DNA of 64,000 bases from Phycisphaera mikurensis NBRC 102666. GTDB lineage: Bacteria; Planctomycetota; Phycisphaerae; Phycisphaerales; SM1A02. Position numbers and translations under genes: made by a program. Below are positions 1 to 31,093 of this stretch, one piece after another (positions within the stretch are counted from its first letter, which is position 1; every line of letters begins with the position of its first letter). The stretch is from the NCBI GenBank assembly GCA_945878575.1, contig CAMDUB010000003.1, forward strand, positions 1 to 64,000, read 5' to 3'. Under the pieces are notes generated by a model. It made no database searches. It worked only from the letters and a program-made list of their open reading frames with translations, and was not told the origin of the DNA.

Positions 1-23
1 AGGGCGTCAGTAGCCGTAACTAA
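1..23 (+). CDS. 3' end of a further paralog of the 770/656-aa cohesin-HYR-dockerin proteins (5' part lies outside the window)
   Basis: Nucleotides 1-23 read (A)AG GGC GTC AGT AGC CGT AAC TAA = KGVSSRN*, identical to the C-termini of the ORFs ending at 9755 and 12040. Confidence 0.75.
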
Positions 24-57
24 CTAAGACTCGAGGGGTCAAACCCCACCACACACC

Positions 58-94
58 GCGCAGGCACCATGGGACAATCCCCTGGTGCCTGCGC
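58..94. terminator. Perfect 12-bp stem hairpin, copy A, of a hairpin found three times in the window (possible terminator or 5' regulatory hairpin)
   Basis: GCGCAGGCACCA-TGGGACAATCCCC-TGGTGCCTGCGC. The arms are exact reverse complements, and the loop can form a nested GGG/CCC stem. No strong U-tract follows. Confidence 0.65.
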
Positions 95-204
95 TGCTTT
101 CTATCCCCGACCTTGACTGGCGCAACGGCGTGCTGTTCTCGCGCGCGCATGATGATTGCTACACGCCCGCGCTTGTTACGTTCGGCAATACAGCGGCGCG
201 ATAA
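85..204 (+). pseudogene. Truncated 5' fragment of mnmC (fossil duplicate)
   Basis: GTG at 85 reads VPALLSIPDLDWRNGVLFSRAHDDCYTPAL, nearly identical to the start of the intact mnmC at 12103. It diverges at about 176 and reaches a stop at 202-204. Confidence 0.85.
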
Positions 205-392
205 GCCCGCGGCGGCTTAGAATCTGTTCTCTGGAGAAATGTTCCAGTAATTGGGTGCTAAGTGACACAATTCGATGCGGAGAATTGGTGGTGGTGGATT
301 ACCTTACTAAATCAAGCGCAACCACCAGGGGTTACGCATCTAGGCACACACACCAACCGCCCCGTCCGGGGAGTTGTTTGAGAGGCATCAAT

Positions 393-3350
393 ATGAGCAT
401 CAAGTCATTCGCATTCGGGGTTGTCGGAGCTGTAGTGTTCGCGAACGCGGCGGCGTCTGCACAGGGCGACAACAGGGTGCTGACCCTGCCAAGCAATTCC
501 GCCGCCGTAAATGTTGGATTCAAGGACCTCCTTACGTCGCCCAACAACACAGGCGAGATGACAATTGAGTTCTGGATTCGTCGCGAAGGCACTTATCCCT
601 ACGGTCGTCCATTCAACATGCGCGGGTGCTCCTGCTCAGGAATCACAATACAGGCAAATGTGCAAGATCAGACCGGACTTCTCCAACTTGAGATTGGAAA
701 CGTTACTGGTACGGGAACAGTTCCTTTCAGCCTCTCGGCATGGCACCACTTTGCAATTGTCTGGGCGAAGTCCCAGGGGATTATTCGAGTTTTCCACAAC
801 GGGGAGTTAGAAGTTGAAATCACAGTTCCGACCGGAAACAATATTGCCTACTGCGGAAGCGAGCCTCTCCGATTTGGCAACCAATGCGGCCTTGGCGTGG
901 TGGGCGCAATGGACAACATTCGCTATTGGGCGGTAGCTCGAACACTAGAGCAAGTACGGGCGAACATGACGATTCAATTCAGTCCAGAGCAAGCGGCTGC
1001 CCAAAGCGGACTGCTTGGTTCCTGGACCTTTGAAGACGGTACCCCCAGTGATGGCACGGGTAACAATCCGGTTGGAACGCTAGAAAGTGACGCAACTGTT
1101 TCGTTTGAGTCACTCCCGTCGTTTGATCAGGACAACGATGGCGTTCCTGACGCCCAGGACAACTGCCCCGCGGTCTCCAACCCCTCCCAAGTCGATTGCA
1201 ACAACAACGGTATCGGCGAGGCCTGCGAGAGCTTTACTGACTGCAACGCCAACATGCTCCCTGACAGTTGCGATATCGCCAGTGGCGCCGCGCAAGATTG
1301 CAATGCCAACGGGATACCTGATTCGTGCGAAATTGCGACGGACCCTACAATTGACTGCAACTCCAACTCCCTCCCCGACTCCTGCGACATCTCCTCCGGC
1401 ACCAGCACCGACGCTGACTCCAACGGCATCCCCGATTCCTGCCAACCCGACTGCAACCTGAACAACCTGCCGGACGCGTGGGAAATCGCCACCGGCCGCG
1501 CCACGGACTACAACGCTGACGGCATCCCCGACACGTGCCAAGGCGCGGTGATGGTGGATTCCACCACCGAGAACCTCGGCGCTCCCAGCGGACTCGCAAC
1601 GCGCGAGCACTCCTTCACCGCGCTGCCGTTCGCGGAGTCGGCGGTCACCATCACCATCGACCTCATCGGCGACCTCAATCGCGTCAACGAATACGTGGAG
1701 GTCTCGCTCAACGGCGGCACCGCGCGGCGCTTCTTCGAGGCAGATGGCAATGACTGCCCCGCCACACCGGACCGCGCGATCATCACCCTCACACGCGCGG
1801 AGTTCAACGCGCTGATATCCCCAAACGGCGGGACCGGCGCGATCCTGGTGGTGTCGATGACCGGCTCCCCCGGCGTCGACTCCTCCGAATGCAAGAACGC
1901 AGCGCTCACGCAATTCCATCTTCAGTACGTGGGCATCCAAGCAAAGTCCGGCGATTGCAACGGCAATAACCGCCTCGATATCGCCGAGACTCACGACGGC
2001 ACAACGCCCGACTGCAACGCGAACACCGTGCCCGACAGCTGCGACATCGCCCGCGGCGCGGCGCAGGACTGCAACGCCAACGCGGTGCCCGATTCGTGCG
2101 AGCTGGCGTCGACGCCTGCGCTCGACTGCAACGGCAACGGCGTGATCGACAGCTGTGACCTGGCCACCGGCGGAACATCCGTCGACTGCGACCAGAACGG
2201 CCGCATCGACAGCTGCCAGGTGACCGAGACGCCCGGCACCGACTGCAACGGCAACCTGCGCCCGGACGCGTGCGACATTGCGGCGGGCACCAGCGGTGAT
2301 ATCGACCAGAACGGCACGCCCGACGAGTGCCAGACCGTCACCGTGCCCGGCCAGTACGCGGGCATCCAGGCGGCGATCGACGCGGCGCCGGCGAACGAGA
2401 TGCGCATCATCTCGGTAGCCGCTGGCACGTACGACGGGCCCATTGCATTCAACGGCAAGCCGGTGATCGTGCGCGGCGCGGGTGCGGCGAGCACGGTGAT
2501 CGAAGGCAACGGCGGGCAGCAGCTCTCCGTGGTGCGGTTCACGGGCGGCGAGCCGGCGATCGCGGCGCTCGAGCGCATGACGGTGCGCGGGGGGACGACG
2601 GGGAGCCCGATCCCCACCTCGCCGACCGTGATCGTGGGCGGCGGCATCTTCGGCCTCGACAGCGCCGCAAGCGTGCGCGACTGCGTGGTGGAGCAGAACG
2701 CCGGCGGGTTCGGCGGCGGCGCGTATTTCCTGCGCTGCACTGGTGAGGTGCGCGGCTGCACGTTCCGTAACAACAATGCCAGCTCTGACGGCGGTGGATT
2801 CCAGTCGAACCAAGGAACCCAGCAACTCATGGATGTGCTCATTGAGAACAACGTCTGCAACTCGCGCGGCGCAGGCATGCACTTGGTACAAGGCACGCCG
2901 ACGCTCACCCGAGTGACGGTGCGAAACAATTACAGCAACAATCTGATCGGCGGCGTTTCGTGGTACGCCCTTGGTGACGCTACTGCGGCGGCGATGCTTG
3001 ATGATTGCGTTGTTACGGGTAACAGCGCCTTGGTCACGCAGGGTGGTATCGGTATCTCCGCAGCAAGTGTGGGCGTGCCGACCATCTCGCTGCGCACCAC
3101 CAATGTGTGCAACAACACGCCGCGCCCGAACATCAATGGCGCGTGGCTGGACCTTGGCGGCAACGCCATTTGCGATTGCGTTGGCGACCTCACGCTTGAC
3201 GGTCTAGTCAACGGCGCGGACCTCGGCATCTTGCTCGCCGGTTGGGGCGCATGCACTGGGAGCTGCGCATCAGACTTGAACCGCGATGGCGTGGTGAACG
3301 GCGCGGACCTTGGGGTGTTGCTCGCGGCGTGGGGGGTTTGCGGGGGGTGA
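393..3350 (+). CDS. Secreted multidomain protein: signal peptide, LamG-like jellyroll, DCNxNxxPDSC repeats, right-handed beta-helix, C-terminal dockerin-like duplicated repeat
   Basis: ORF 156..3350. The ATG at 393 gives a signal peptide (MSIKSFAFGVVGAVVFANAAASAQG). LamG-like segment (MTIEFWIRREG...WHHFAIVW); many DCNxNxxPDSCDIA repeats; beta-helix region (YAGIQAAIDAAPANEMRIISVAAGTYDGPIAFNGKPVIVRG); C-terminus GDLTLDGLVNGADLGILLAGWG/SDLNRDGVVNGADLGVLLAAWG. Confidence 0.85.
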   Translation: MSIKSFAFGVVGAVVFANAAASAQGDNRVLTLPSNSAAVNVGFKDLLTSPNNTGEMTIEFWIRREGTYPYGRPFNMRGCSCSGITIQANVQDQTGLLQLEIGNVTGTGTVPFSLSAWHHFAIVWAKSQGIIRVFHNGELEVEITVPTGNNIAYCGSEPLRFGNQCGLGVVGAMDNIRYWAVARTLEQVRANMTIQFSPEQAAAQSGLLGSWTFEDGTPSDGTGNNPVGTLESDATVSFESLPSFDQDNDGVPDAQDNCPAVSNPSQVDCNNNGIGEACESFTDCNANMLPDSCDIASGAAQDCNANGIPDSCEIATDPTIDCNSNSLPDSCDISSGTSTDADSNGIPDSCQPDCNLNNLPDAWEIATGRATDYNADGIPDTCQGAVMVDSTTENLGAPSGLATREHSFTALPFAESAVTITIDLIGDLNRVNEYVEVSLNGGTARRFFEADGNDCPATPDRAIITLTRAEFNALISPNGGTGAILVVSMTGSPGVDSSECKNAALTQFHLQYVGIQAKSGDCNGNNRLDIAETHDGTTPDCNANTVPDSCDIARGAAQDCNANAVPDSCELASTPALDCNGNGVIDSCDLATGGTSVDCDQNGRIDSCQVTETPGTDCNGNLRPDACDIAAGTSGDIDQNGTPDECQTVTVPGQYAGIQAAIDAAPANEMRIISVAAGTYDGPIAFNGKPVIVRGAGAASTVIEGNGGQQLSVVRFTGGEPAIAALERMTVRGGTTGSPIPTSPTVIVGGGIFGLDSAASVRDCVVEQNAGGFGGGAYFLRCTGEVRGCTFRNNNASSDGGGFQSNQGTQQLMDVLIENNVCNSRGAGMHLVQGTPTLTRVTVRNNYSNNLIGGVSWYALGDATAAAMLDDCVVTGNSALVTQGGIGISAASVGVPTISLRTTNVCNNTPRPNINGAWLDLGGNAICDCVGDLTLDGLVNGADLGILLAGWGACTGSCASDLNRDGVVNGADLGVLLAAWGVCGG

Positions 3351-3403
3351 GTGATGAGACGGGGCGGTGTGTTTGAAGTCAAAGAATCGATTGGAACACA
3401 TAT

Positions 3404-6220
3404 ATGAAGCACTCAATATTCATCGCTATCGTCGGAACCGCCTCGATCGTCGCTTCGGCGAAGGCGGGGTTTCTTGGGTTTGTGGCGTCGGTGCGGATTG
3501 TTGGTTCGAATACGGTGATTGATATCTATGCGGGGGTAGACAATCCGAGCGATAAGTTCCTGAACGTCTATAACGCGAACATCTCCACCACGCTCGCTGG
3601 CGGATTCGTCCAGAAGGCTGGCTTGGCCACCAAGACGTGGAAGCCTGACACCGCTGGTTTCACCTCCACCCGCAACACCAACGATGACAGCTTCATGACC
3701 GATGGCACCTTCTCTGGTGGCGCATACGGTGGTGAGTTCTACGCCTCCAGCAACACCAACGCTGACCCGAACTTCACTGGCACCAGCTGGTTCGCAACCC
3801 CAGCCTCACCGGCTGCCACCACTGTTCCTGCCAACGCTGGCTGGTACACCGGCGACCCGACCTCCGTCGACAACCGCGCTGAGAGTCTTGCTGGCATGAT
3901 TGGTCGCGTCAACACTGGTGCAACCGCTGCTTCCGGCAATACTGCTGGCAGCCTGGGAACCGCCAACGCCAACTTTGGCATCTGGTGCGGCCACATCGTG
4001 GTGGCAGGAACCGGCACCATGGCGACGAACGTCCTCTGGTCTGCATCCTCGTCCATCAAGGACGGTGTGACTGGAGTCACTGACCAGCGCATCAGCACTA
4101 ATTGGCTCCCAGCCCCGGACTTGGACAGCGACGGCATCCTCAACGCCACCGACAACTGCCCAACCGTCCCCAACCCAAACCAAGCCGATTGCAACAACAA
4201 CGGAATCGGTGAAGCCTGCGAAACATTCACTGACTGCAACTACACCGGCCTACCGGATTCCTGCGACATCGCCGCGGGCAGCAGCCTCGACGGCGACACT
4301 AACGGCGTCCCAGATGAGTGCCAGGCGGACTGCAATCTGAACCAGATTTCTGACTTGCAAGAGATCAACAATGGCTCTGTTCCGGACGGTAACGCGGACC
4401 GTATTCCAGACACCTGCCAAGGCGCTGTCTTTGTGAATAGCGACAGCGGAATCCTCGGAGCGCCATCAGGATTTGAGGCTCGCTCGTTTACTTTCACTTC
4501 CGCTTTGTACGCTGAGTCAACCGTCACGGTAACCATCGATGCACGCGGTGACCTGAACGGCACAACTGAGTTTGTTGACGTGGACCTCAACGGCGGCGCT
4601 GCCCAACGGTTCTTCCAAGCCACAGGCAACAGCTGCCCAGCGACACCGGACCGCGCCACTATCACGCTCACACGGCAACAGTATGCGACGCTCCTCACGG
4701 CGGCCGCGGACTCACTGACTGTCACTATGACCTGCCCCCTCACTGTGGATCCAACAGAATGCAAAGGAACCGGACTGACGCAATTCAAAGTGAGTTATCT
4801 TGGAATCAACCCTGCCACCGGCGATTGCAACCACAACAATCGACTTGATATCTACGAGATCCATGAGGGGCTCGTTCCGGATTGCAACCACAACAATGTT
4901 CCCGATAGTTGCGATCTTGGGCGCGGAGGAATCTTGGATTGCGATCTTGACGGTATCGCAGACATTTGCGAGATCGGAACCACACCATCCCTCGACTGCA
5001 ACCTCAATAGCCAACTCGATTCCTGCGAACTCGCCGCTGGCGGCATCACCATCGACTGCGACCAGAACGGCCGCATCGATAGTTGCCAAGTTGCCGAAAC
5101 CGCTGGAATTGATTGCAACGGGAACCTCACGCCGGACTCCTGCGATGTTGCCGGCGGAATCAGCGCCGACATCGATGCCAACGGCAAACCCGACGAATGC
5201 CAGACCGTGCAAGTGCCAGGGCAGTACGCCACTATTCAGTCTGCCATCGACAGTGCGCCAGCGAATGAAATGCGCATCGTGATGGTGGGTGCTGGCATAT
5301 TCCCTGGACCGATTGATTTCCAGGGCAAGCCAGTCCGCGTGCGCGGCACGAGTTGCGCGCAGACCATCATCAGCGGAAACGGTAGCCAGCAAGCCTCTGT
5401 TGTCCGCTTCTCCGGCGGTGAGCCAGCAATCGCAATGCTCGAGTGCGTCACCGTCCGTAGTGGTACCAGTGGAACACAGCCCATCGGTTCACCGACCGTA
5501 TTGGCCGGCGGCGGCATCTTCGGCCAGAACAGCGCGGCAAGCGTGCGCAACTGCTTTGTGGTGAACAACAGTTCCGGCTTCGGTGGCGGTGCCTACTTCT
5601 TGAATTGCACCGGCTCAGTGACCAACACCGTCTTCGGTGGCAACACTGCCAGTTCTGATGGTGGTGGATTCCAGGCAAATCAAAGCACCATGATGCTCAC
5701 CGATGTGCTGATCGAGAACAACACCTGCAATTCACGCGGTGGTGGCATGCACCTCGTACAGGGCAACCCAACGCTGACGCGCGTCACGGTGCGGAACAAC
5801 ATCAGTAGCAATCTGATCGGCGGTGTTTCGTGGTATTCGGTTGGCAGCAGCACGGCGTATCTCGCCATGAACAATTGCACAATCACGGGCAACACCGCGC
5901 TCGTAACACAGGGCGGTATTGGCATCTCAGAGACCGCTTCACTACCTGTCAGCGCCTCACTCGAGGGCACCACGGTCTGTGACAACCTCCCGCGCCCCAA
6001 CATCACTGGCCGCTGGTGGAACCTCGGCGGTAACTTCGTATGCGACTGCGCCGGCGATGTCGATCTCGACGGCATGGTCAACGGCAGCGATCTGAGCTTG
6101 GTGCTCTCCAACTGGGGCCCATGTACTGGCATCTGCCGCTACGACCTGAATGATGATGGCATCGTCAACGGCGCCGACCTGAGCAAGGTGCTATCAAACT
6201 GGGGTGTTTGTGGGAATTGA
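3404..6220 (+). CDS. Secreted multidomain paralog: N-terminal module shared with the 331-aa protein, DCNxNxxPDSC repeats, beta-helix, dockerin-like repeat
   Basis: 938 aa. The N-terminus (FVQKAGLATKTWKPDTAGFTSTRNTNDDSFM...) matches the ORF at 6226. The C-terminal two thirds match ORF 393-3350. Confidence 0.85.
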   Translation: MKHSIFIAIVGTASIVASAKAGFLGFVASVRIVGSNTVIDIYAGVDNPSDKFLNVYNANISTTLAGGFVQKAGLATKTWKPDTAGFTSTRNTNDDSFMTDGTFSGGAYGGEFYASSNTNADPNFTGTSWFATPASPAATTVPANAGWYTGDPTSVDNRAESLAGMIGRVNTGATAASGNTAGSLGTANANFGIWCGHIVVAGTGTMATNVLWSASSSIKDGVTGVTDQRISTNWLPAPDLDSDGILNATDNCPTVPNPNQADCNNNGIGEACETFTDCNYTGLPDSCDIAAGSSLDGDTNGVPDECQADCNLNQISDLQEINNGSVPDGNADRIPDTCQGAVFVNSDSGILGAPSGFEARSFTFTSALYAESTVTVTIDARGDLNGTTEFVDVDLNGGAAQRFFQATGNSCPATPDRATITLTRQQYATLLTAAADSLTVTMTCPLTVDPTECKGTGLTQFKVSYLGINPATGDCNHNNRLDIYEIHEGLVPDCNHNNVPDSCDLGRGGILDCDLDGIADICEIGTTPSLDCNLNSQLDSCELAAGGITIDCDQNGRIDSCQVAETAGIDCNGNLTPDSCDVAGGISADIDANGKPDECQTVQVPGQYATIQSAIDSAPANEMRIVMVGAGIFPGPIDFQGKPVRVRGTSCAQTIISGNGSQQASVVRFSGGEPAIAMLECVTVRSGTSGTQPIGSPTVLAGGGIFGQNSAASVRNCFVVNNSSGFGGGAYFLNCTGSVTNTVFGGNTASSDGGGFQANQSTMMLTDVLIENNTCNSRGGGMHLVQGNPTLTRVTVRNNISSNLIGGVSWYSVGSSTAYLAMNNCTITGNTALVTQGGIGISETASLPVSASLEGTTVCDNLPRPNITGRWWNLGGNFVCDCAGDVDLDGMVNGSDLSLVLSNWGPCTGICRYDLNDDGIVNGADLSKVLSNWGVCGN

Positions 6221-6225
6221 GCCAG

Positions 6226-7203
6226 ATGAACAACACATACAACCTGCAAAAAATCGTGGTGAGTGCATGCCTCGTTCCAACCATGGGGGCGGAGGCAGCT
6301 GTCGGCTTCGTGGCATTCGCGAAGCAGTCGGGAACGAATGTGGTCGTTGATGTGTTTGTAGCTGTTTCAAATGCATCGGATAAATTTATCTCTGTCCAAT
6401 CATTAAATTCCACCACAACACTTCCGGGCGGATTCGTTCAGAAAGCTGGCTTAGCAACCAAGACCTGGAAGCCAGACACCGCCGGTTTCACCTCTACGCG
6501 CAGCACGTCCGATGACAGCTTCATGACCGCCGGCACATTCTCTGGCGGCTCGTACGGCGGAGAGTTCTACGCATCAAGCAATAGCAACGCCAATCCGAAC
6601 TTCACGGGAACTAGTTGGAACGCAACCCCATCCTCACCAGCCGCCACAACTATTCCAGCAAACGTTGGCTGGTACAGCGGCGACCCGACTTCTATCGACA
6701 ACCGTGCGGAGAGCCTTGCCGGTATCGCTGGCGTCCGAATCGACGGATCGGATGGCACATCAAGCACCGGGGGTACCACGAGCACCGCGGCCTACGGCTT
6801 TTGGGTGTCACATTTGGTGTTTAACGACACCACTGTTGATACTGCAATGACGGGCCTCACTTGGAGCGGCAGGATCATCATGCGTGTTCCGGGCGACAGC
6901 AGCTTCTTCAGCGCCATGAGCTACCCACAAAGCACCGATAGCGATAGCGACGGCGTGATCGACCTGCACGACTATTGCCCAACACTGCCCGGATCGGCGG
7001 CATGCAACGGCTGCCCGCCCAACTTATGTTGCGCTGGCGACATCTCACAGAACGGCCGAGTCGACGGAATCGACCTTGGAATGCTGCTCGCCGTTTGGGG
7101 CCCATGCACCAGTGCTTGCGTCGCCGACATCACCGGCGACGGCTTAGTTGACGGCGCAGACTTGGGAATCCTGCTGCATGATTGGGCACACTGCCCGGGG
7201 TGA
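6226..7203 (+). CDS. Secreted protein: N-terminal module shared with the 938-aa protein plus C-terminal dockerin-like repeat
   Basis: ORF 6208..7203. The ATG at 6226 gives MNNTYNLQKIVVSACLVPTMGAEAAVGF. Ends GDISQNGRVDGIDLGMLLAVWG/ADITGDGLVDGADLGILLHDWA. Confidence 0.8.
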   Translation: MNNTYNLQKIVVSACLVPTMGAEAAVGFVAFAKQSGTNVVVDVFVAVSNASDKFISVQSLNSTTTLPGGFVQKAGLATKTWKPDTAGFTSTRSTSDDSFMTAGTFSGGSYGGEFYASSNSNANPNFTGTSWNATPSSPAATTIPANVGWYSGDPTSIDNRAESLAGIAGVRIDGSDGTSSTGGTTSTAAYGFWVSHLVFNDTTVDTAMTGLTWSGRIIMRVPGDSSFFSAMSYPQSTDSDSDGVIDLHDYCPTLPGSAACNGCPPNLCCAGDISQNGRVDGIDLGMLLAVWGPCTSACVADITGDGLVDGADLGILLHDWAHCPG

Positions 7204-7442
7204 GATGATGCGGCAAAAACGAGCAGCCCACTACCACTTGTGGCGTGGGTACCACCGACCAACCCTTGCGCCACTACTATTTTTCTGTGCAGAAACCTTG
7301 TGGGGTGGCCGCGGTTAGCGAGCCAACAATTCTCATAAATCAGCGGCCATGCCGTGATCCAAGAACCGATCTTTTGCGCGTCAACTATTGTTACACCAGC
7401 GCTTTCTCATCACATTTTCGGCATGCGCCCTGAGGACTATCC

Positions 7443-9755
7443 ATGAACTACAAAAACGCCATCCTGGGACTCATCACCACCATTGCAATCGCACATTCAA
7501 CCTACGCCAATGATGGCTGCGGCGAAGAATGGACGGTCACTAACCAGAACTCTCCCGGCAGCGTCGCGATTTGCTACGACGAAGCTCGCAGTGAAGTCAT
7601 AACTCAGTCATCCGGCAAGCTCTGGGGATGGAACGGTGCTACTTGGACCGAGCGTTGGTCTGATCCTGCCCTCGATGGCGCAGACGCAATGGCGTATGAC
7701 CGTAACCGACAGGTGTGTTACATCTTCGGCGGTGGTGGCGGATACGAAGACAAACTTTGGTCGTGGAACGGCACATCGCTGACGCTGATCGCGAACGACA
7801 CTATCGGTGGCCGCTCCTACTGCGCGATGGCCTTCGACTGGAAGCGCGACCGTCTTGTGGTGCATGGTGGATACAACGGGAGCTTCTTGCTAAGTAGTTG
7901 GGGCGAGTGGGATCCAGCGACCAACACCTGGCAGACATGGGGCGATGGCCCGATCGGTCGCTTGTACGCACACAAGATGGTCTACGACTCCGTGCGCGAA
8001 GTCTGCGTGCTTCACGGCGGTTACTATTTCTATAACCGCAACGCAACATGGACATGGAACGGTGCTGCATGGTCAAACGTAACCAACAGCGGTCCCGCGC
8101 GCTATGTAGCAAACATGGCCTGGGATTCTGAACGCGAACAAGTGGTCTTCCATGGCGGAACCACCTGCTGTGGCGAGGTGGAGTACAGCAGCACCTGGCT
8201 GTGGCGTGGCGGAGATTGGAGCACATGTGAACTGCAAGGCCCACCGCGCGGCTATACAAACATGGCTTACGACTCTGCGCGACATGCCTTCGTGATGCCC
8301 GGTGGCATTGGGCCAACACCGAGTGGACGGCAGTGGATTCCTGAAACGAATGAACTGCGAATGACGACCATACCGGCTCCACCAAGTATCAACCTTGTCG
8401 GTCCTGCCGATCAAACCAGCACCACTTGCGCTGCAATTGGCGATCTTGTCACCTATGACGTCATCGTCAACAACCCAACCATCGTAATGGTGGCGGGGCA
8501 GTTCGGCATTCAATTCGACAAGACGGTCTTGGAATTTGTCAGTCTTGCCGGTGGAGATGCACCGATCACCACTACACCACTCGTTGTTCCCAACACTGCC
8601 GCCGGCAAATTGTTCTGGGTCTCCTCGGTGGTGAACGGCGGAACAGGCACCGCAGCCACGACGCGCGTTGCACGCGTGACTTTCCGAGTGATTGCTGATG
8701 ATTGCAACGGCGATGAACAGGTGTCATTCGATCCTGCCATGGCACCCATCTTGCTCGCCGACGGCAACGGTACCCCTGCCTCACTGCCCACCGTCAACCC
8801 ACTGCCGATCAGCATTGACAGTGTTGGCCCAGTCATCACCAATGTCCCCGCGGACCTTGTGGTGGCGGCAGATGCTGGTGCTGGTTGCTTGGCAGTTCGT
8901 GAGATCGGTACCCCAACCGTCACAGACAGTTGCAGCACCGCAGTGCTGACATGGTCTCGAAGCGATGGCGCCTTGTTACTTTCAGCGCCGTGGCTGTGTG
9001 GAACCACGGTCGTGACATGGACTGCCACCGACGCATGTGGTCGTACCTCCACGGCAACCACTTCGGTTACTGTGAATTCGTATCACCTGATGAATGTCAC
9101 GGTCGCCTATGCAGGCAGTGGTTACGCATCATCAATGACCCGATGCATTGGCTTCCGCGTAGACGATGTAACCCTGACCGATGTCATGACCTTCATGAGC
9201 GGAACTGCAACTGCAACGCTGCAACTCCCGATCGGTGATTACAACTGCGCAACTGCTGATGATGATCTGCACAGCTTGGTATCCCAAGTTCCAGTGAGTA
9301 TCAATGGAACCAACTACCAGATGACCGTCACTGGTGACTCTGCACTCATTAACGGTGACCTTGATGACGACAACGTAGTGAATGTCGTCGACTGGGGCGT
9401 CTTGGTGGTACGTGTGGGAATGGCCGCCGCAGTCAATACAGACTGCACCACGGTGGGCTTCCATGCAGACTTCGACGGCGATGGCACCGTGACCAACACT
9501 GACGGTAACCGCCTGCTGCAAAGCTTCCTTGTGCAGGGCGATACTGGCTGCAATGCTTTCAATGCGAATGGTGGACCAGTTGTAACGCGCATCTCCGTAG
9601 CCGATCTGTCAGTGATCGCAGGAATGAACGCCTCCGCCGCGGATATGAACCGCGACGGTGTAGTTGACGCCAAGGACATCGCGATGTGGACTCGTCTGCA
9701 ATCGATGCCAGGACGCCAGCCACTCACTGCAAAGGGCGTCAGTAGCCGTAACTAA
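7443..9755 (+). CDS. Secreted protein: kelch-like N-terminus, cohesin-like domain, HYR domain, dockerin-like C-terminus
   Basis: 770 aa with signal peptide. Kelch-like repeats (MAYDRNRQVCYIFGGGG, MVYDSVREVCVLHGGYY, MAWDSEREQVVFHGGTT); cohesin-like AGQFGIQFDKTVLEFVSLAGG...ARVTFRVIADDC; HYR-like VPADLVVAADAGAGCLA...TVVTWTATDACGRTSTATTSVTV; EF-hand-like dockerin segments. Confidence 0.8.
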   Translation: MNYKNAILGLITTIAIAHSTYANDGCGEEWTVTNQNSPGSVAICYDEARSEVITQSSGKLWGWNGATWTERWSDPALDGADAMAYDRNRQVCYIFGGGGGYEDKLWSWNGTSLTLIANDTIGGRSYCAMAFDWKRDRLVVHGGYNGSFLLSSWGEWDPATNTWQTWGDGPIGRLYAHKMVYDSVREVCVLHGGYYFYNRNATWTWNGAAWSNVTNSGPARYVANMAWDSEREQVVFHGGTTCCGEVEYSSTWLWRGGDWSTCELQGPPRGYTNMAYDSARHAFVMPGGIGPTPSGRQWIPETNELRMTTIPAPPSINLVGPADQTSTTCAAIGDLVTYDVIVNNPTIVMVAGQFGIQFDKTVLEFVSLAGGDAPITTTPLVVPNTAAGKLFWVSSVVNGGTGTAATTRVARVTFRVIADDCNGDEQVSFDPAMAPILLADGNGTPASLPTVNPLPISIDSVGPVITNVPADLVVAADAGAGCLAVREIGTPTVTDSCSTAVLTWSRSDGALLLSAPWLCGTTVVTWTATDACGRTSTATTSVTVNSYHLMNVTVAYAGSGYASSMTRCIGFRVDDVTLTDVMTFMSGTATATLQLPIGDYNCATADDDLHSLVSQVPVSINGTNYQMTVTGDSALINGDLDDDNVVNVVDWGVLVVRVGMAAAVNTDCTTVGFHADFDGDGTVTNTDGNRLLQSFLVQGDTGCNAFNANGGPVVTRISVADLSVIAGMNASAADMNRDGVVDAKDIAMWTRLQSMPGRQPLTAKGVSSRN

Positions 9756-9826
9756 CTAAGACTCGAGGGGTCAAACCCCACCACACACCGCGCAGGCACC
9801 ATGGGACAATCCCCTGGTGCCTGCGC
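8814..9826 (+). repeat. Near-identical duplicated segment, left copy (HYR + dockerin coding region + 3' hairpin)
   Basis: Protein segment DSVGPVI..KGVSSRN* is almost identical to that at 11099-12040, and homology runs past the stop codon into the hairpin. Confidence 0.85.
9790..9826. terminator. Perfect 12-bp stem hairpin, copy B
   Basis: Identical sequence to 58-94. About 10 codons of mnmC start sequence follow (GTG CCT GCG CTG CTT TCT ATC CCC GAT ACT GAC TGA), then an in-frame stop. Confidence 0.65.
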
Positions 9827-10069
9827 TGCTTTCTATCCCCGATACTGACTGACACGTTGATGCTTTGTGGCTAAACGAATCAAACGACAGCCCTGTTCTT
9901 GTAATTTGTTTCTCCACAGATATGATTGCTTCGAATTACAGTTGTAGGACCTTGTAACAAATAGATTTCGAGTTAACTTCCACTTTGGATAACGTCAACA
10001 CTGTTATCTTTGGATCTCAATGTTCGTGATCCGCCACTTTCGGGACCAACCGCACGCATTTAGGAAAAA

Positions 10070-12040
10070 ATGAAGAAGACAACCGGATTTGCTATCGCAA
10101 TGTTTATGGCGCCGCTCACTGTAATCGCCACAAATGTTCAAGCTGCAGTGAACTACTCGCTCAAGGCCGTGACCTTCTACCAGTACGGCGCCCCGGGAGA
10201 TGTGGTTGCGGGCTCTGTGTGCACAGACACCGGCTGGGTTCGCTTTATCAACACAGGAACCTCAACACTTACGGGAAACTTCTCGATCAGTGGTGTCGAC
10301 GCTCAAGGCATCGGTCACACCGAATCGGTGTATCGCACCGTTGGCCCCGGCGAAACGCTCGGATCCATGTCTAACAATACCTGCGATAGCAGCAACGTTA
10401 ACGGCTACAACAAGCGCCCGGGCGACACTGATCTCGGTATCGAGATCCGCTTCGACGGTACAGCTACCCAGAATGGTTCCTCGGAAAGCATTGCTCTCAC
10501 CGTGTTCGATAAGGACGTTCACTCAGGGGTAGTTCGCTACCCATTTGGAACGGCTTCGGATTCTTATGTATTCCAAGGTGGCGACCCTTATGGTCGCGAT
10601 ACTGGCGATGACTTTGAAGTCACTCAGGCACCTGGTAGCCACACATGGTCCGGCGTCATTGCTCCGCCAACGGTTTCGATGGTTGGCATGGCTGACAGCT
10701 CCACCACCGCATGCGCGGCGATTGGTGATCTACTCACATTCGATGTGATTGTCACCAATCCACCAATCACACTCGTAGCTGGTCAGTTCGCAATCCGCTA
10801 CGACACCACCGTCCTTCAGTTCGTAAGTATTGAAGGTGGCGAAAATCCAATCACGAGCATTCCGCTCACGTGGCCGAACGCCGCAGAAGGAAAGCTGTTC
10901 TGGGTGTCGTCTGTGGAGTCCGGCGGCACTGGCACAGCAGCTACCACCCGCGTAGCACGCTTGAAATTCCGAGCCATTGCCGATGACTGCGACGGTAATA
11001 CCCAGGTCGCCTTTGACCCTGCATTCGCGCCAATTCTCACCGCCGACGGCAATGGCACCCCTGCCTCACTTCCCACCGTCAATCCACTGCCAATCACTAT
11101 CGATAGCGTTGGGCCGGTCATCAGTAATGTCCCTGCGGACCTTGTGGTGGCAGCAGACGCTGGTGCTGGTTGCTTGGCAGTTCGTGAAATCGGTAACCCA
11201 ACGGTGACGGATAGTTGCAGTGCGGCAGTACTGACGTGGTCTCGAAGCGATGGCGCAGCTCTGCTCTCCGCACCGTGGCTTTGTGGAACCACCGTGGTGA
11301 CATGGACTGCCACCGACGCATGTGGTCGTACCTCCACGGCAGCCACTTCGGTTACTGTGAATTCGTATCACCTGATGAATGTAACGGTTGCCTATGCAGG
11401 TAGTGGTTACGCATCATCAATGACTCGATGCATTGGCTTCCGCGTAGACGATGTAACACTCACCGATGTCATGACCTTCATGAGCGGAACTGCAACTGCG
11501 ACGCTGCAACTTCCGATCGGTGATTACAACTGCGCAACTGCCGATGATGATCTGCACAGCTTGGTATCCCAAGTTCCAGTAAGTATCAATGGAACCAACT
11601 ACCAAATCACCGTCACTGGTGACTCTGCCCTCATCAACGGTGACCTTGATGACGACAACGTAGTGAATGTCGTCGACTGGGGCGTCCTGGTGGTCCGTGT
11701 TGGAATGGCCGCCGCAGTCAATACAGACTGCACCACGGTGGGTTTCCATGCGGACTTCGATGGCGATGGCACCGTGACCAACGCTGACGGTAACCGCCTG
11801 CTGCAAAGCTTCCTGGTGCAGGGCGATACTGGCTGCAATGCTTTCAACGCGAATGGTGGTCCAGTTGTAACGCGCATCTCGGTGGCCGACCTTTCAGTGA
11901 TCGCTGGAATGAACGCCTCCGCCGCGGATATGAACCGCGACGGTGTGGTTGACGCCAAGGACATCGCGATGTGGACTCGTCTGCAATCAATGCCGGGACG
12001 CCAGCCATTGACAGCAAAGGGCGTCAGTAGCCGTAACTAA
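10070..12040 (+). CDS. Secreted protein: unique N-terminal module, cohesin-like domain, HYR domain, dockerin-like C-terminus
   Basis: 656 aa. Signal peptide MKKTTGFAIAMFMAPLTVIATNVQA. N-terminus unrelated to the 770-aa protein; C-terminal ~310 aa nearly identical to it. Confidence 0.8.
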   Translation: MKKTTGFAIAMFMAPLTVIATNVQAAVNYSLKAVTFYQYGAPGDVVAGSVCTDTGWVRFINTGTSTLTGNFSISGVDAQGIGHTESVYRTVGPGETLGSMSNNTCDSSNVNGYNKRPGDTDLGIEIRFDGTATQNGSSESIALTVFDKDVHSGVVRYPFGTASDSYVFQGGDPYGRDTGDDFEVTQAPGSHTWSGVIAPPTVSMVGMADSSTTACAAIGDLLTFDVIVTNPPITLVAGQFAIRYDTTVLQFVSIEGGENPITSIPLTWPNAAEGKLFWVSSVESGGTGTAATTRVARLKFRAIADDCDGNTQVAFDPAFAPILTADGNGTPASLPTVNPLPITIDSVGPVISNVPADLVVAADAGAGCLAVREIGNPTVTDSCSAAVLTWSRSDGAALLSAPWLCGTTVVTWTATDACGRTSTAATSVTVNSYHLMNVTVAYAGSGYASSMTRCIGFRVDDVTLTDVMTFMSGTATATLQLPIGDYNCATADDDLHSLVSQVPVSINGTNYQITVTGDSALINGDLDDDNVVNVVDWGVLVVRVGMAAAVNTDCTTVGFHADFDGDGTVTNADGNRLLQSFLVQGDTGCNAFNANGGPVVTRISVADLSVIAGMNASAADMNRDGVVDAKDIAMWTRLQSMPGRQPLTAKGVSSRN

Positions 12041-12112
12041 GTCAGGATGACGGGGTCACAACCCCGCTACACACCGCGCAGGCACCATGGGACAATCCCC
12101 TGGTGCCTGCGC
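11099..12112 (+). repeat. Near-identical duplicated segment, right copy
   Basis: Partner of 8814-9826. Confidence 0.85.
12076..12112. terminator. Perfect 12-bp stem hairpin, copy C, overlapping the putative GTG start of mnmC
   Basis: Same hairpin as 58-94 and 9790-9826. The 3' arm (12101-12112) contains the GTG at 12103-12105. Confidence 0.65.
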
Positions 12113-14163
12113 TGCTTTCTATCCCCGACCTTGACTGGCGCAACGGCGTGCTGTTCTCTCGCGCGCATGATGATTGCTACACGCCAGCGCTTGCCACTCC
12201 TACAACTGAAGAGCGCGCCGATGCCTTCGCCGCCACCCGTGACTTCCGCGCCACGCGCCGCCACCTCACCGCTGAACTTGGATTTGGGACCGGCCTTTCG
12301 TTCCTTGCTGCATGGGCAGACTTTCGTGCCAATGCACCCGCTGATGCGCAACTCGACTGGGTGAGTGTGGAATCCGCGCCACTTGATCCCGCCACCATCG
12401 AACGCGCGCTCGCGCCATCCACCGCGCCACTCCTCTCAGACATCCTCTCCGAACTCCTCCGCGCACTTCCGCCACACATTCGCGGGATCCACCGTCGTGC
12501 CTTCGATGGCGGACGAGTACGTCTCACGCTTCTCTATGGCGACGTTCTTGAACTGCTGCCAGTCACTGACTTCATCGCTGACTCTTGGCAACTTGATGGC
12601 TTCACTCCAGATCGCAATCCCGAAATGTGGTCCGCCGAGACATTTGCACAAGTGGTCGCGCACGCACGCGTCGGCACCACCATCGCGGGACGATTCGCAC
12701 CGCCCCCAGTGCTCGAACGCCTGAAATCACTGGGATTTGCGTTCCCCGCCACCAATACACCCAGCGCGCCCGCATCCTCACCCGCGTCCAACGCCGGCGC
12801 TGCACACCCCCCGCTTTACGGCACACTGACACGCACACCCGAGAAACGCGCCTTCCGCCAACTCCCGCGCTGGTTCTCCATGCCGCATCCAGCAACCGCG
12901 GCAGACACCCTCCAGCCCGCCGCCATCCCAACCGCCATCGTCGTCGGTGCCGGCCTCGCCGGTGCCTCCGCCGCGCGCGCACTCGCGGAACGTGGGATCA
13001 CTGTGACCGTCATCGACGCTGGCTGTGCCGCCGGCCACGCCTCCGCTGCGCCACGCGCTGTGCTCGCCCCGTATCTCGCGAGTTGGCAAAGTCCACAAAC
13101 CCGCGTAGTTGCACAAGCATTCATGCTCGCGCGCGCAGTGATGGAGCGCGTGGGCGCGCCGCTCAATCCGTGCGGATTGCTGCACCCCGTCAACAGTGAT
13201 GATGAATGGGGCTATGAGCAATCGATCGCCGAGTGGGGCTGGCCCGCTGAACTGCTCCGCCTCATCAGCGCCGATGAAGCAACCAGCGTCGCGGGCACAT
13301 CGCTCAGCAATACAACCAATCCAGAAGGCGCCATCTTCGTCCACGACGCCGCCACCACGCGACCAGCGGAAACCGTGCGCGCCCTGCTCACACACCCCGC
13401 TATCACGCTCCACGAACACGCGCCCGTCGCGCGCCTGCGACACACTGATGACGGTTGGCATGTTGATACCGAAAGTGGTCGTACCTTCGATGCCAACATC
13501 GTGGTGATCGCAACTGCCGGCATCCCAGCCGCCGCGTTACCCAACATGCCAGAGGCGCTTGCATCCGACGCGCTTCCATCCATTCCGTTCAACGCCACAC
13601 GCGGGCAACTCTCAACGCTTGCGTTTGACGATGCATTTGCTGGCGCAAGCGCCGTGCCATTTACCGTGGTAAGCGCCAATGGATTCGCAATGCCGCCCGT
13701 CGACGGCGCACTGTGCGCTGGTGCCACCTATGAGCGCGAACGATTGACCACCGGACCCACGCCGCACGATGATGCTGTCAATCTTGGTCACATCGAACGC
13801 CTGCTCCCCGCCCTTGCTACCTGCACTCCCAATCGACGCGGCGCATGGGCAGGCATCCGCACCTCCGTCAACGACCATTGCCCAGTGATCGGCCCGGTGA
13901 TTGCCGACGCGCAATTCCGTGAATCATTCGCGCGCCTACCGCACGGTCCATTCGCCGCGGCATGGCCTGACGCCCCGCTACTTCCTGGGCTGTTCGTCAC
14001 GCTCGCCCATGGTTCACGCGGAACATCGACGGTGTTCCTTGCCGCAGAACTCATCGCCGACATGGTGTGTGGCACACCACGGTGCATCGCTGATGACCTG
14101 CTGCCCGCGGTGCTACCGCAACGGTTTCTTGTGCGCGAGTTGCGTGTCGGCACGCGCGAATAG
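12103..14163 (+). CDS. mnmC: Bifunctional tRNA (5-methylaminomethyl-2-thiouridine) biosynthesis protein MnmC (methyltransferase + FAD-dependent oxidoreductase)
   Basis: N-terminal LDW..GVLFSRAHDDCY...LGFGTGLSFLAAW; Rossmann FAD motif IVVGAGLAGASAARALAERGITVTVIDAG; DAO-like C-terminus. Confidence 0.85.
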   Translation: MPALLSIPDLDWRNGVLFSRAHDDCYTPALATPTTEERADAFAATRDFRATRRHLTAELGFGTGLSFLAAWADFRANAPADAQLDWVSVESAPLDPATIERALAPSTAPLLSDILSELLRALPPHIRGIHRRAFDGGRVRLTLLYGDVLELLPVTDFIADSWQLDGFTPDRNPEMWSAETFAQVVAHARVGTTIAGRFAPPPVLERLKSLGFAFPATNTPSAPASSPASNAGAAHPPLYGTLTRTPEKRAFRQLPRWFSMPHPATAADTLQPAAIPTAIVVGAGLAGASAARALAERGITVTVIDAGCAAGHASAAPRAVLAPYLASWQSPQTRVVAQAFMLARAVMERVGAPLNPCGLLHPVNSDDEWGYEQSIAEWGWPAELLRLISADEATSVAGTSLSNTTNPEGAIFVHDAATTRPAETVRALLTHPAITLHEHAPVARLRHTDDGWHVDTESGRTFDANIVVIATAGIPAAALPNMPEALASDALPSIPFNATRGQLSTLAFDDAFAGASAVPFTVVSANGFAMPPVDGALCAGATYERERLTTGPTPHDDAVNLGHIERLLPALATCTPNRRGAWAGIRTSVNDHCPVIGPVIADAQFRESFARLPHGPFAAAWPDAPLLPGLFVTLAHGSRGTSTVFLAAELIADMVCGTPRCIADDLLPAVLPQRFLVRELRVGTRE

Positions 14164-23300: not shown

Positions 23301-24074
23301 AGTGAAGGAATGGCGAACTTCTCCACAGCACGTCTCTTCCGGCAACTCCGCGGCGACCGCGCGCGGCAGGCGTTCATGCGCGAAATCGAATTCACCTACG
23401 CCAACCAGCGAAGTGTGGATGAAGAGCGCCCAATGACGGAGGTCGACGGCAACCGCCGCGGCGACGGCACCGTGACCTATGACAAGGGTGGCTGGGTCTT
23501 CTGGATGCTCATGGAGCATCTCGGCGATGACAAGATGGATGAAGGCTTGCGCGCGTTCATCGGCAAGTTCAAGGACGGCCCCGACTATCCGCTCCTGCAA
23601 GATTTCATCGCCGCCATGCGCCCCTTTGCCAAGGACGCTGCCGCCTACGACGCGTTCGTCGACCAATGGTTCTTGCGCGTTGTAATTCCAGAAATCAAGG
23701 TGGAATCAGCACAATTCACCGCACCCGCCAAGGATGGCGATCCATGGCGAACGGTAGTGACTGTGCGCAACGTCGGCACTGGAACTGTTCCGATCGAAAT
23801 TGCCGTGACCAACGGTGAAGATCGTTGGCCGCAGGCATCTCTGCCCCGAACTGCTGAGGAGCGCACTGCAGCAGCAAAGCAGCGCGATGAATACAAAGAC
23901 GCCCGCGGTACTCACACGATTGCCGCTGGTGCAACCGCGGAGTACGTAATCGAAACAGCCTTCCAACCAAAGAAGGCCATCGCCGATCCCGACGTTCACA
24001 CCCTGATGATTGGCCGAAAGACTGCCGAAGCGGACATTTCAGAAGCGCCCACTGAGACGCCGAAGAATTCTTAA
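20340..24074 (+). CDS. ABC-2 permease fused to M1-family (gluzincin) aminopeptidase domain
   Basis: 1244 aa. N-terminal ABC-2-like TM regions; C-terminal peptidase with HETAH-x18-E zinc motif (MIVAHETAHQWWGNILPPGDAPGGNILSEGMANF). Confidence 0.9.
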   Translation: MRRTLTLAFLELRTSWRRPAWWVLLAILFFLTWGFSSGSVTIGSGGTQAGGDRAFINSEFNLAFGDILVFSLFYLFFVCTAFGNAVNEDDTLRVMPIVGSTGLTPREYVIGRWLGIALVFGVIITLHLFMQIGFFEMYPLSEPEKMRGPFALVNYLRPMVMFVAIPILALGAIAFAIGSITRQTVLVFALPVALLLSSLFFIWNFSPEWLPHWGNRALQAIDITGFRWLNETWLKVDKGVAFYNHEPLSFDALFTGARVALVVAAGIALLVAAQREQRRMRSPHAVTATDAERIIADADRARREREAAPRKESSLASLGMSSGHVGVLAAAVDAFRAEVREMRRSPGLWIFVPLIILQTVGPAIYSPGPFDTPKLTTPGSFAAQSYNTITLLSIFLMLYYFTESLARDERSRIASIVNASPSRTGALTLGRMAACTTVVAVALFGGLWAAMILAMVVQGVQSGIMLMPSPGPLVIAWGAMLLPTLFAWMCFMTLIWSQFRNRYAVYGAGIGAMILTGWCVQMGWMNWVFNWHLWGDLTWTDFGALELDRGVLVLNRVLWILVGLTLLHISLEWWRRRTPDAQGITTRLQFARAWKRVMWMLVFGGPAIAVGITLALMVRSGPNGGPERKAQRDYYVGNASTWKDVPQPELMKVDLDLNLDPAANSIAVKGSYGLRNTTDKPMRRIAVTPDSTFEGVKFTFEGKTWDPEEATKERKENPRHPVCENSSGLWIFTPKEPLAPGAEVTLGFEHVAHVPAGTRKNPAGAGEFILPAGTVLNSFGVSFMPMLGYVDGVGMDPERTPEAKRPEPDDWKKVTKTAFGTGGHTDMTARVKLPAEYRANMPGVCTSDTVDGTTRTMEWKSDHPIMAVNLVAGKWQESKGERTAIWHLPAHSFNVPAMLEALDGAHEWYSKWFWPYPWKELRISEFPGLADYAQGFPTNIVFSESIGFLAKPSAEQDAPFMIVAHETAHQWWGNILPPGDAPGGNILSEGMANFSTARLFRQLRGDRARQAFMREIEFTYANQRSVDEERPMTEVDGNRRGDGTVTYDKGGWVFWMLMEHLGDDKMDEGLRAFIGKFKDGPDYPLLQDFIAAMRPFAKDAAAYDAFVDQWFLRVVIPEIKVESAQFTAPAKDGDPWRTVVTVRNVGTGTVPIEIAVTNGEDRWPQASLPRTAEERTAAAKQRDEYKDARGTHTIAAGATAEYVIETAFQPKKAIADPDVHTLMIGRKTAEADISEAPTETPKNS

Positions 24075-25063
24075 CTTCCAGCAGTTGCCGCTGCACGCTT
24101 GCGCTCTGCAGCCTTCTGCGCAGAGAGCACCAGCCCGGCGCCCAAAACCGCAACAACACCCGCCGCCCATTGCTTGCCGGAAAGCACTTCGCCAAAGTAC
24201 GCGGCGCTGAACGCGCTGACGATAAATGGCTGCAATTGCAGCACTCCTGCTGTAGTCGCTACTCCCATGCGGTCGATGGCCGTGTAGTAAAGAACATGGC
24301 CGATCGCAATGCCAAAGAAGGCACTGAGACCAAGCGACCAGAGTTCGCTGCTCCCCAAGTCAAGAACCTCCGCGCCATGCCCACGCGCAAACGCCAGCAT
24401 GCACGCCACCAGTGTTCCGCCCGTGTAGAGCGCAATCACTCCGAAGGCAAACACCGGGTGGTAGCCATACATGAACTTCCGGACAGCAAGTCCGTACACG
24501 CCGTAACCAATGCCGGCGAACACGGCAAGCAACACACCAATCATGGAGCTGCCTTCCAGAATATTGCCGCCACCAAGCAGCACCCCCGCCACTCCGCAAA
24601 TCAGTAGCCCCAATCCTCCGAGGTATCGCACCGAGGCGATCGTGGCGCGCTCGGCCGGAAAGAGCAGGTACGCACCAATTGCAACCGCCACCAATTGCAA
24701 CCGCAATCCAAAGGTCAACAGCCCTGGATTCACGTAACTGTGTGCTGCCGTGAACGCCACTTGTGCCACCGTGTTGGCGACGGCAGGAATCAGCGCCGCA
24801 CGCCAAATCGTGCGCGGTAGAACGCCACGTGAAAGCGCCCACAACACTGCTGGTAGCCAAAATAAAGCGCTTGCTCCGTAGCGCCATCCGTTGTTGGTCC
24901 AGTGATCAATGTAGCCCGCAAGATGCCGCACAAAGAGTGGAACTGTTGACCAACACGCAAGCGTTGCCATCAAGACAAGAACGCCCTCCGAGCGCTTCAT
25001 GTGTCGCACTGCAAAGCTTGAAGCCGCCGATGGCACTGCGCGCATGCGCCGCAGCCCACTCAT
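24071..25063 (-). CDS. EamA/DMT-superfamily transporter
   Basis: About 10 hydrophobic segments. FVRHLAGYIDHWTNNGWRYGASALFWLPA and GEVLSGKQWAAGVVAVLGAGLVL are typical of EamA. Start overlaps the upstream SDR stop (ATGA). Confidence 0.85.
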   Translation of the reverse strand: MSGLRRMRAVPSAASSFAVRHMKRSEGVLVLMATLACWSTVPLFVRHLAGYIDHWTNNGWRYGASALFWLPAVLWALSRGVLPRTIWRAALIPAVANTVAQVAFTAAHSYVNPGLLTFGLRLQLVAVAIGAYLLFPAERATIASVRYLGGLGLLICGVAGVLLGGGNILEGSSMIGVLLAVFAGIGYGVYGLAVRKFMYGYHPVFAFGVIALYTGGTLVACMLAFARGHGAEVLDLGSSELWSLGLSAFFGIAIGHVLYYTAIDRMGVATTAGVLQLQPFIVSAFSAAYFGEVLSGKQWAAGVVAVLGAGLVLSAQKAAERKRAAATAGS

Positions 25064-25881
25064 CCGAGCGCCAGCCTGCCGCCATCAACCGGAAGATTGA
25101 CGCCAGTGAGATACGAAGCCGCGGGTGAAGCCAAGAACACCGCTACCGCTGCAATTTCTTCAGGCGCGCCCAAGCGACCCATGGGCACCGTTCGAAGCGC
25201 GTCGGCCTCTACTTCTTGCGCCGAAGTACCGGCGCGATGTGCACGTCCTTCAAAGAGCGAAGCAAGCCGAGCCGTGCGCGTAAAGCCCGGAAGAATGGTG
25301 TTCACGGTAATTCCAAACGGCGCCAATTCCACTGCCAGTGATCGACCCCAGTTGGCTACCGCCGCGCGAATAGTGTTTGAAACACCCAACCCACGGATGG
25401 GCGTCACCACACTGGTGGAAGCGATGTTGATGACGCGTCCGTAGCCAGCTTCGCGCATGCCCGGCGCAAACACTTGCACCAGCGCGTGGTTGGCCAAGAG
25501 GTGCATCTCAAACGCCTTCGTAAAGTCCTCAGGCTTTGCTTCGATAGCCGCGCCCGCCGCTGGACCGCCGGTGTTGTTCACCAGCACATGGACGGGGCCA
25601 GCGCTACCCAAGTGCGTACGCGCCGCAAAGTCCACATCCTTGGCGCTGCTGAAGTCCACCTCCACGCTCCAGTGCCGCTGCCCGACGGGCTTCGGCAGTT
25701 CTTCCAGCGTCCGCATCAGGCCTTGGTCATTTCGGCCACACACGGTCACCGTCGCGCCAGCGGCCGCCATGGCGATAGCCGTGGCCTTACCGATCCCCTG
25801 GGTAGCGCCACACACAAACGCGTGGCGGCCAAAGAGCGGGAGGTGTGCGGTAGCGGGGGCGGGAGCCGGGGCGGTCGTCAT
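25060..25881 (-). CDS. SDR-family oxidoreductase
   Basis: ORF 25060..26325 trimmed to the ATG at 25881 (MTTAPAPAPATAHLPLFGRHAFVCGATQGIGKATA). NAG motif VLVNNTGG; C-terminal ASYLTGVNLPVDGGRLALG. Confidence 0.88.
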   Translation of the reverse strand: MTTAPAPAPATAHLPLFGRHAFVCGATQGIGKATAIAMAAAGATVTVCGRNDQGLMRTLEELPKPVGQRHWSVEVDFSSAKDVDFAARTHLGSAGPVHVLVNNTGGPAAGAAIEAKPEDFTKAFEMHLLANHALVQVFAPGMREAGYGRVINIASTSVVTPIRGLGVSNTIRAAVANWGRSLAVELAPFGITVNTILPGFTRTARLASLFEGRAHRAGTSAQEVEADALRTVPMGRLGAPEEIAAVAVFLASPAASYLTGVNLPVDGGRLALG

Positions 25882-25924
25882 TGCCGCAGCGTATCGAACC
25901 CCGGGGAGCGGTAGAACACGGCAG

Positions 25925-28879: not shown

Positions 28880-28894
28880 GCACGGACCGCGCCG

Positions 28895-30946: not shown

Positions 30947-31008
30947 GAAGTGCCTTTCGAAGCAGGAAGTGTAAGGGTTTACCCCGTGCTCACATTGGCA
31001 AAAAGCAC

Positions 31009-31036
31009 GCGAGGGTCGCCAGTTGGCGACCCTCGC
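31009..31036 (-). terminator. Intrinsic terminator for the prepilin gene
   Basis: Perfect 12-bp stem GCGAGGGTCGCC-AGTT-GGCGACCCTCGC. On the minus strand it is followed by gtgcTTTTTg. Confidence 0.8.
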
Positions 31037-31093
31037 GGGAAGAATCAGGTCAGTAACAACATGTGGTGGCATGCACCCAATGTTGCACCAGTA

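Follow-up and report, generated by a model that had tools for sequence, protein, structure and literature searches.

The functional end of CdiA, Rhs, and MafB is swapped at a constant boundary. Antigenic-variation loci operate through gene conversion and donor copies (PMC4534519), and PEP-CTERM proteins belong to the protein sets that change fastest (PMC1569441). For new planctomycete proteins, domain shuffling and paralog expansion have been recorded as sources (PMC8567305). In addition, cohesin/dockerin complexes called "planctosomes" have been proposed for freshwater Planctomycetes, the Nemodlikiaceae, as a model without biochemical proof; the adaptor is composed of a signal peptide, a cohesin, a HYR domain, and a dockerin, the anchoring protein carries TSP3 repeats, and partner peptidases and an LTD-anchored scaffold are included (PMC6461901). 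A literature search found no paper describing the locus presented here, none joining dockerin, Planctomycetes, and PEP-CTERM, and none joining choice-of-anchor proteins and dockerin.

Judged by its predicted domains, this locus belongs to a kind already known, that of recombining modular surface-protein loci, and its domain set matches the planctosome proposal (PMC6461901). One tail type (T2, see below) has a cohesin and a dockerin like the planctosome adaptor, together with a putative HYR domain (HYR_4C, only 15 bits against a cut-off of 27), and TSP3 repeats are shared with the anchoring protein; here, however, the adaptor-like part is a tail beneath exchangeable heads in a recombining tandem array. 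As in choice-of-anchor (TIGR04362, choice_anch_C) and PEP-CTERM proteins (PMC1569441), one ectodomain, the head of gene g2, occurs with different C-terminal sorting signals, but in this case the anchor change is caught at a single locus, where a head of 90% nucleotide identity switches within 5 bp to tail type T1. Constant flanks around variable segments, segmental conversion-like mosaics, and tandem copies are shared with pilE/pilS, vlsE, and vsa (PMC4534519), whereas all copies of this locus look complete and their heads differ in fold and not in sequence. The TSP3 repeats of T1 match the model of MtsC-type cell-cohesion proteins (NF047638) weakly, with 24 to 33 bits, far below the cut-off of 350, and heads and anchor differ. 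As in CdiA, Rhs, and MafB, a functional end is exchanged while the boundary stays constant; in contrast to these, it is the N-terminal binding head that is exchanged and the C-terminal anchor that is constant, and no toxin or immunity genes were seen.

The window, i.e., the whole stretch of 64,000 nucleotides that was analysed, opens with the first base of contig C3, part of a draft genome (G000), and was compared with a set of 14 genomes of the genus, all draft MAGs and one per species. An earlier sequence-only reading reported five complete + strand genes and the tail of a sixth, all of which are present (Table 1), the tail as the last 7 codons at the left edge. The proteins were wrongly called giant in that reading, as they span 325 to 985 amino acids across the array. 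The first gene, read there as 1,064 amino acids, probably starts at ATG 393 and encodes 985, because the upstream part of the longer frame crosses an mnmC fossil and the promoter region. A signal peptide was recognized by eye at the N terminus of all five proteins.

Table 1. Positions of the array features and of the right flank in the window.
Feature	Position	Strand	Description
End of upstream array gene	1..23	+	Last 7 codons and stop, 100% identical to the 3' end of g4 (9733-9755)
mnmC fossil	85..175	+	First ~30 mnmC codons, duplication scar; 94% amino acid identity to MnmC residues 1-32; homologous to 12103-12193
Upstream region of g1	180..392	+	Promoter/5' UTR, constant 5' arm; nucleotide identity 92% with the sequence preceding gene a and 88% with that preceding the G010 counterpart
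g1	393..3350	+	Signal peptide, LamG head, TSP3/DCN repeats, beta-helix-like body, dockerin pair; 985 aa
g2	3404..6220	+	Exchanged head (3422-4118), g1-type T1 tail from 4123, dockerin
g3	6226..7203	+	Head of the g2 type, followed almost immediately by a dockerin pair; 325 aa
g4	7443..9755	+	Kelch-type beta-propeller head, T2 tail from ~8416 (cohesin, HYR-like, dockerin)
Segment between g4 and g5	9756..9842	+	Linker and hairpin, then the initial bases of a short mnmC fossil; identical to window 24-109, homologous to 12041-12128
g5	10070..12040	+	Head of unknown type, T2 tail (cohesin, HYR-like, dockerin)
Hairpin at mnmC start	12076..12112	+	Copies at 58..94 and 9790..9826, plus two other species
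mnmC	12103..14163	+	Right flank of the array, fixed across the genus; MnmC_Cterm 269 bits, above cut-off

Three tail types were distinguished, as follows: T1 contains TSP3/DCN repeats, a beta-helix, and a dockerin; T2 contains a cohesin, a HYR-like domain, and a dockerin; and T3 consists of a dockerin only. A T1 tail is found in 57 of 101 genomes of the family, and therefore the parts themselves are common, whereas the site and its turnover stand out. In Pfam searches, g1 matched LamG (47.8 bits) and TSP3 (26 bits), TSP3 and dockerin were detected in g2 and g3, and g4 matched Kelch (20.4 bits). Dockerin-like ends were claimed for all five proteins. The curated cut-off for dockerin type I (PF00404, 22.9 bits) is exceeded by g4 (26.8 bits) and g5 (28.0 bits), while g2 (21.4 bits) and g3 (20.9 bits, with a dockerin_GC match of 20.8 bits) lie slightly under it; g1 gave no Pfam dockerin match, but both of its repeats can be aligned to the g2 and g3 repeats. 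The cohesin cut-off (PF00963, 24.1 bits) is exceeded by g5 (25.0 bits), by gene b of contig C14 (28.0 bits), and by a gene on contig C5 (27.2 bits), with g4 slightly under it (23.4 bits). These putative cohesins and dockerins thus have modest Pfam scores. AlphaFold models of g5 and of the g2 head were of low confidence (mean pLDDT, 46 and 56) and retrieved no Foldseek match with an E value of <0.001, and the profile of the T2 tail found no match among PDB chains.

Modules are shared between neighbors in different combinations, as the sequence-only reading proposed. The heads of g2 and g3 are 82% identical at the nucleotide level over 313 bp, and the bodies of g1 and g2 are 66.5% identical over 1,985 bp (E = 6e-154). 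The genes g4 and g5, described as 770- and 656-amino-acid proteins with unrelated N termini and nearly identical C termini, indeed align from the cohesin-like domain onward with 86% nucleotide identity over 1,439 bp (E = 0; tails 89% identical in amino acids), with no nucleotide match between their N termini.

The array continues on a second contig of the same genome. C14 carries gene a (DUF642 head, T1 tail), a duplicate (L') of a small gene termed L, and also gene b (T2 tail), which leaves the contig at its end with a tail 94% identical to that of g4. On the far side of gene a lie L and a MutL/GlmL-like gene. The first 175 positions of the window repeat the end of g4/g5 and the first ~30 codons of mnmC, including a 109-bp exact repeat at the left edge, and positions 1 to 23 are most likely, by their match, the 3' end of gene b, with ~350 bp absent in the contig gap. 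Arranged most parsimoniously, the locus reads mutL, L, a, L', b, gap (~350 bp), fossil mnmC, g1, g2, g3, g4, short fossil, g5, and mnmC, which gives seven detected genes between the mutL/glmL-like gene and mnmC. We infer the join of a and b across the gap to g1, and part of the gene order, as many contigs end inside the array. The gene L encodes 106 to 107 amino acids beside mutL (L025:5110-5430 and 1813-2127, +) and has no Pfam or NCBIfam match. Its extra copy within the array is intact, with 14 of 106 codons changed, 10 of them synonymous, and may for this reason be functional.

The same site holds different gene sets across the 14 genomes. The array adjoins mnmC also in G010, G012, G013, and G006, and starts beside L and mutL in G002, G005, and G007. 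At least three array-type genes lie between mutL and mnmC in G006 and G013, at least four array genes are split over two contigs in G010, and one lies beside mnmC in G012. In G006 and G013, L is flanked by array genes, and in G012 it adjoins mnmC; the flank was therefore drawn into the duplications. In G003, mutL and L lie within about 0.6 kb of mnmC, all on one 3.4-kb contig, and the spacer retains a degraded piece of dockerin (69 bp, 75% nucleotide identity to g1), and a search of this genome (81% complete) retrieved no T1 gene. The G003 site, one species on one 3.4-kb contig, is best read as a deleted array that left a near-empty scar. The locus is thus not collinear between species, and the growth and contraction of the array fit the expanding modular locus of the earlier reading.

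The fossil starts of mnmC mark tandem duplications, and an equivalent fossil junction lies in the interior of a G010 contig. The hairpin at the start of mnmC folds with -33.1 kcal/mol (z = -7.6) and overlaps the putative GTG start codon of this gene. It was found only in G000, G003, and G010, is absent after most array genes, and has a core that is identical in the three species, though mnmC differs by ~13% of its nucleotides. It may control translation of mnmC or end transcription of the array.

Positional counterparts share a 5' arm (promoter and signal peptide) with 73 to 92% nucleotide identity where aligned, and a tail with 80 to 92% nucleotide identity over 1.0 to 2.0 kb (80 to 95% in amino acids). 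Gene a and the G007 counterpart (G007_p1) are 91% identical from the upstream region to ATG+75, followed by ~620 bp that are unmatched and then by 80% identity over 2.0 kb. The head is likewise unmatched between gene a and G005_p1 (5' arm 73%, then 92% over 1.6 kb), between g1 and G010_p3 (5' arm 88% over 248 bp, then 91% over 1.0 kb; tail 93% in amino acids), and between gene a and g1 (5' arm 92%, then 86% over 2.0 kb). The heads on these tails are DUF642/choice_anch_C-like in gene a (68 bits, below the choice_anch_C cut-off of 120), LamG in g1, and C-type lectin in G005_p1, G007_p1, and G010_p3, with a match of 33.3 bits in G005_p1 and the other two assigned through their 42 to 47% similarity to it. 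The alignments show that heads were replaced while the 5' arm on one side and the tail on the other were conserved, since divergence alone cannot convert one fold to another on a ~90% identical tail. The head of g5 has no match elsewhere in the genus and the LamG head no close donor within it; for most heads no donor was found, and we assume exchange with other lineages as their source.

Heads of the g2 type also occur away from the array. Contig C16 of the same genome carries seven of them at 23793-32103 (L074): six lie in tandem on the + strand, two of these sharing an open frame, and the seventh lies on the - strand. All seven continue into a short C terminus, e.g., PAPGALALLGLAGFASRRRRA. 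The best C16 heads are 90% identical in nucleotides to g2 3422-4118, and T1 homology with g1 starts at 4123. The same type of head thus bears a PEP-CTERM-like tail on C16 versus dockerin tails in the array, and because of its 90% identity to the C16 genes, the anchor of the g2 head was evidently changed. The term "PEP-CTERM-like" is used because the motif PAPGALALLGLAGFASRRRRA is our own reading: in NCBIfam, three C16 proteins scanned had no PEP-CTERM match, and one reached 17.3 bits against 20 for MYXO-CTERM. The C16 head genes have a start codon, a signal peptide, and a C-terminal anchor, and being apparently complete, they look expressed and not like silent cassettes.

Clusters similar to that of C16 are present in G002, G012, G010, and G004. 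Relatives of the T2 tail with 30 to 51% identity were found in G001, G003, G004, G007, G008, and G009, and a headless, stand-alone one at the end of contig C5 (L026:12442-13905; cohesin, 27.2 bits; dockerin, 35.7 bits) is near the published planctosome adaptor. A scan of named genomes with g2 retrieved only three loci, two of them from a MAG titled Chitinophaga pinensis (CALQCP02; L084, L085); this label is apparently wrong, because the MAG groups with Planctomycetota, with this planctomycete genus.

Phylogenetic trees place heads and tails differently. In the tail tree g2 pairs with G010_p2 (100/99), whereas in the head tree g2 falls with G010_p5 and the C16 genes, and the head of G010_p2 pairs with G010_p1 (100/99). 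Under the approximately unbiased (AU) test, the opposite pairing is rejected in both data sets, with P = 1.4e-5 for heads and a weaker P = 0.016 for tails; a group made of the three tails that carry lectin heads withstood the test (P = 0.078). Heads and tails, as these trees indicate, have conflicting histories. The tails also carry tracts that look conversion-like: along g4 and g5, identity climbs from about 66% to 95%, the steps per 100 bp being 56 to 69%, 85 to 87%, and 92 to 96%, and in codons for identical residues, synonymous changes drop from ~60% to ~15%. As synonymous sites step too, protein-level selection does not explain these steps. Shuffled alignments gave steps as large in 761 of 2,000 cases for the even control pair b/g4, versus 0 of 2,000 for each of g4/g5 and a/g1.

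We consider it likely that this is a fixed locus with a tandem array of secreted proteins made of exchangeable parts, whose heads are swapped by ordinary recombination and whose products are displayed and assembled through cohesin and dockerin. The array grows by tandem duplications with ends inside the genes of the flanks, of which fossil mnmC starts and an additional L remain, and it can apparently be lost almost wholly, with a scar left behind, as in one species. Heads would be swapped by RecA-type homologous recombination on the two constant arms, fed by paralogs or incoming DNA and without a dedicated recombinase; that none is visible was already stated in the earlier reading, and we agree. 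The products would be exported and anchored or assembled through cohesin-dockerin contacts with their heads outward, so that a head swap would change the polysaccharide or other ligand bound by the complex. The tempo of exchange may be slow. It is doubtful that these presumably free-living bacteria possess a dedicated head-exchange locus, in which lectin-like heads would be replaced within populations through the two arms and re-specify a cohesin-dockerin surface complex in the manner of immune or adhesin repertoires.

Programmed diversification, as in antigenic or receptor variation, would make the array an expression site and the C16-like loci donor stores, with switching inside populations. 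The constant arms that flank variable heads, the cluster of head-only genes that match the g2 head at 90% identity, the conversion-like tracts, and the contigs of several species that break inside the array would all suit it. We regard it as unlikely, as the C16 genes come with signal peptides and PEP-CTERM-like tails of their own and give the impression of being expressed, the LamG and g5 heads are without a close donor in the genus, no recombinase is visible, and presumably no immune pressure acts on such planctomycetes, none being known. Quite improbable as well is slow accretion of domains, in which whole genes would have been duplicated in tandem and their heads would then have diverged fast, under relaxed or positive selection, without exchange of modules. 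Tandem duplications did occur, and some heads of the same type merely diverged (g2/g3 and G010_p1/p2), but tails that are 88 to 93% identical bear LamG, DUF642, and C-type lectin heads, which is impossible by divergence. Moreover, homology ends at the signal peptide on one side and in the TSP3 region on the other, and the conflict between head and tail trees runs counter to simple whole-gene duplication, the alternative named in the sequence-only reading.

That reading also named an assembly artefact, here from collapsed or chimeric repeats, which the exact repeat at the contig-end start of the window and the several arrays broken at contig ends might suggest. It is very unlikely: independent MAGs have the same modules between the same flanks, the copies differ by 5 to 35%, far beyond error or collapse, and the fossil mnmC junction in the interior of the G010 contig is strong counterevidence. 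The artefact was rejected on this agreement among relatives and on that junction. Least probable of all is capture by a dedicated enzyme that moves heads or whole genes, as in diversity-generating retroelements (DGRs) or integrons, with the hairpin as the site. C-type lectin heads have the fold of DGR targets, and the perfectly conserved hairpin follows several array genes; yet the hairpin belongs to the start of mnmC and has the restricted distribution given above, and no array genome of the genus contains a reverse transcriptase, on which ground the DGR was rejected. Among the 14 (incomplete) genomes, 13 have none, and G009 has a match but no array gene was found in it.

As a likely case of ordinary recombination at a fixed site, the locus offers a traceable example of how new multidomain surface proteins are made, with heads, arms, tails, breakpoints, fossils, and one deletion scar at one site. 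It joins three ideas that are usually separate, namely choice of anchor, planctosome-type assembly, and recombining surface arrays, and with it one can test directly whether planctomycetes exchange their binding specificity but retain the anchoring part.
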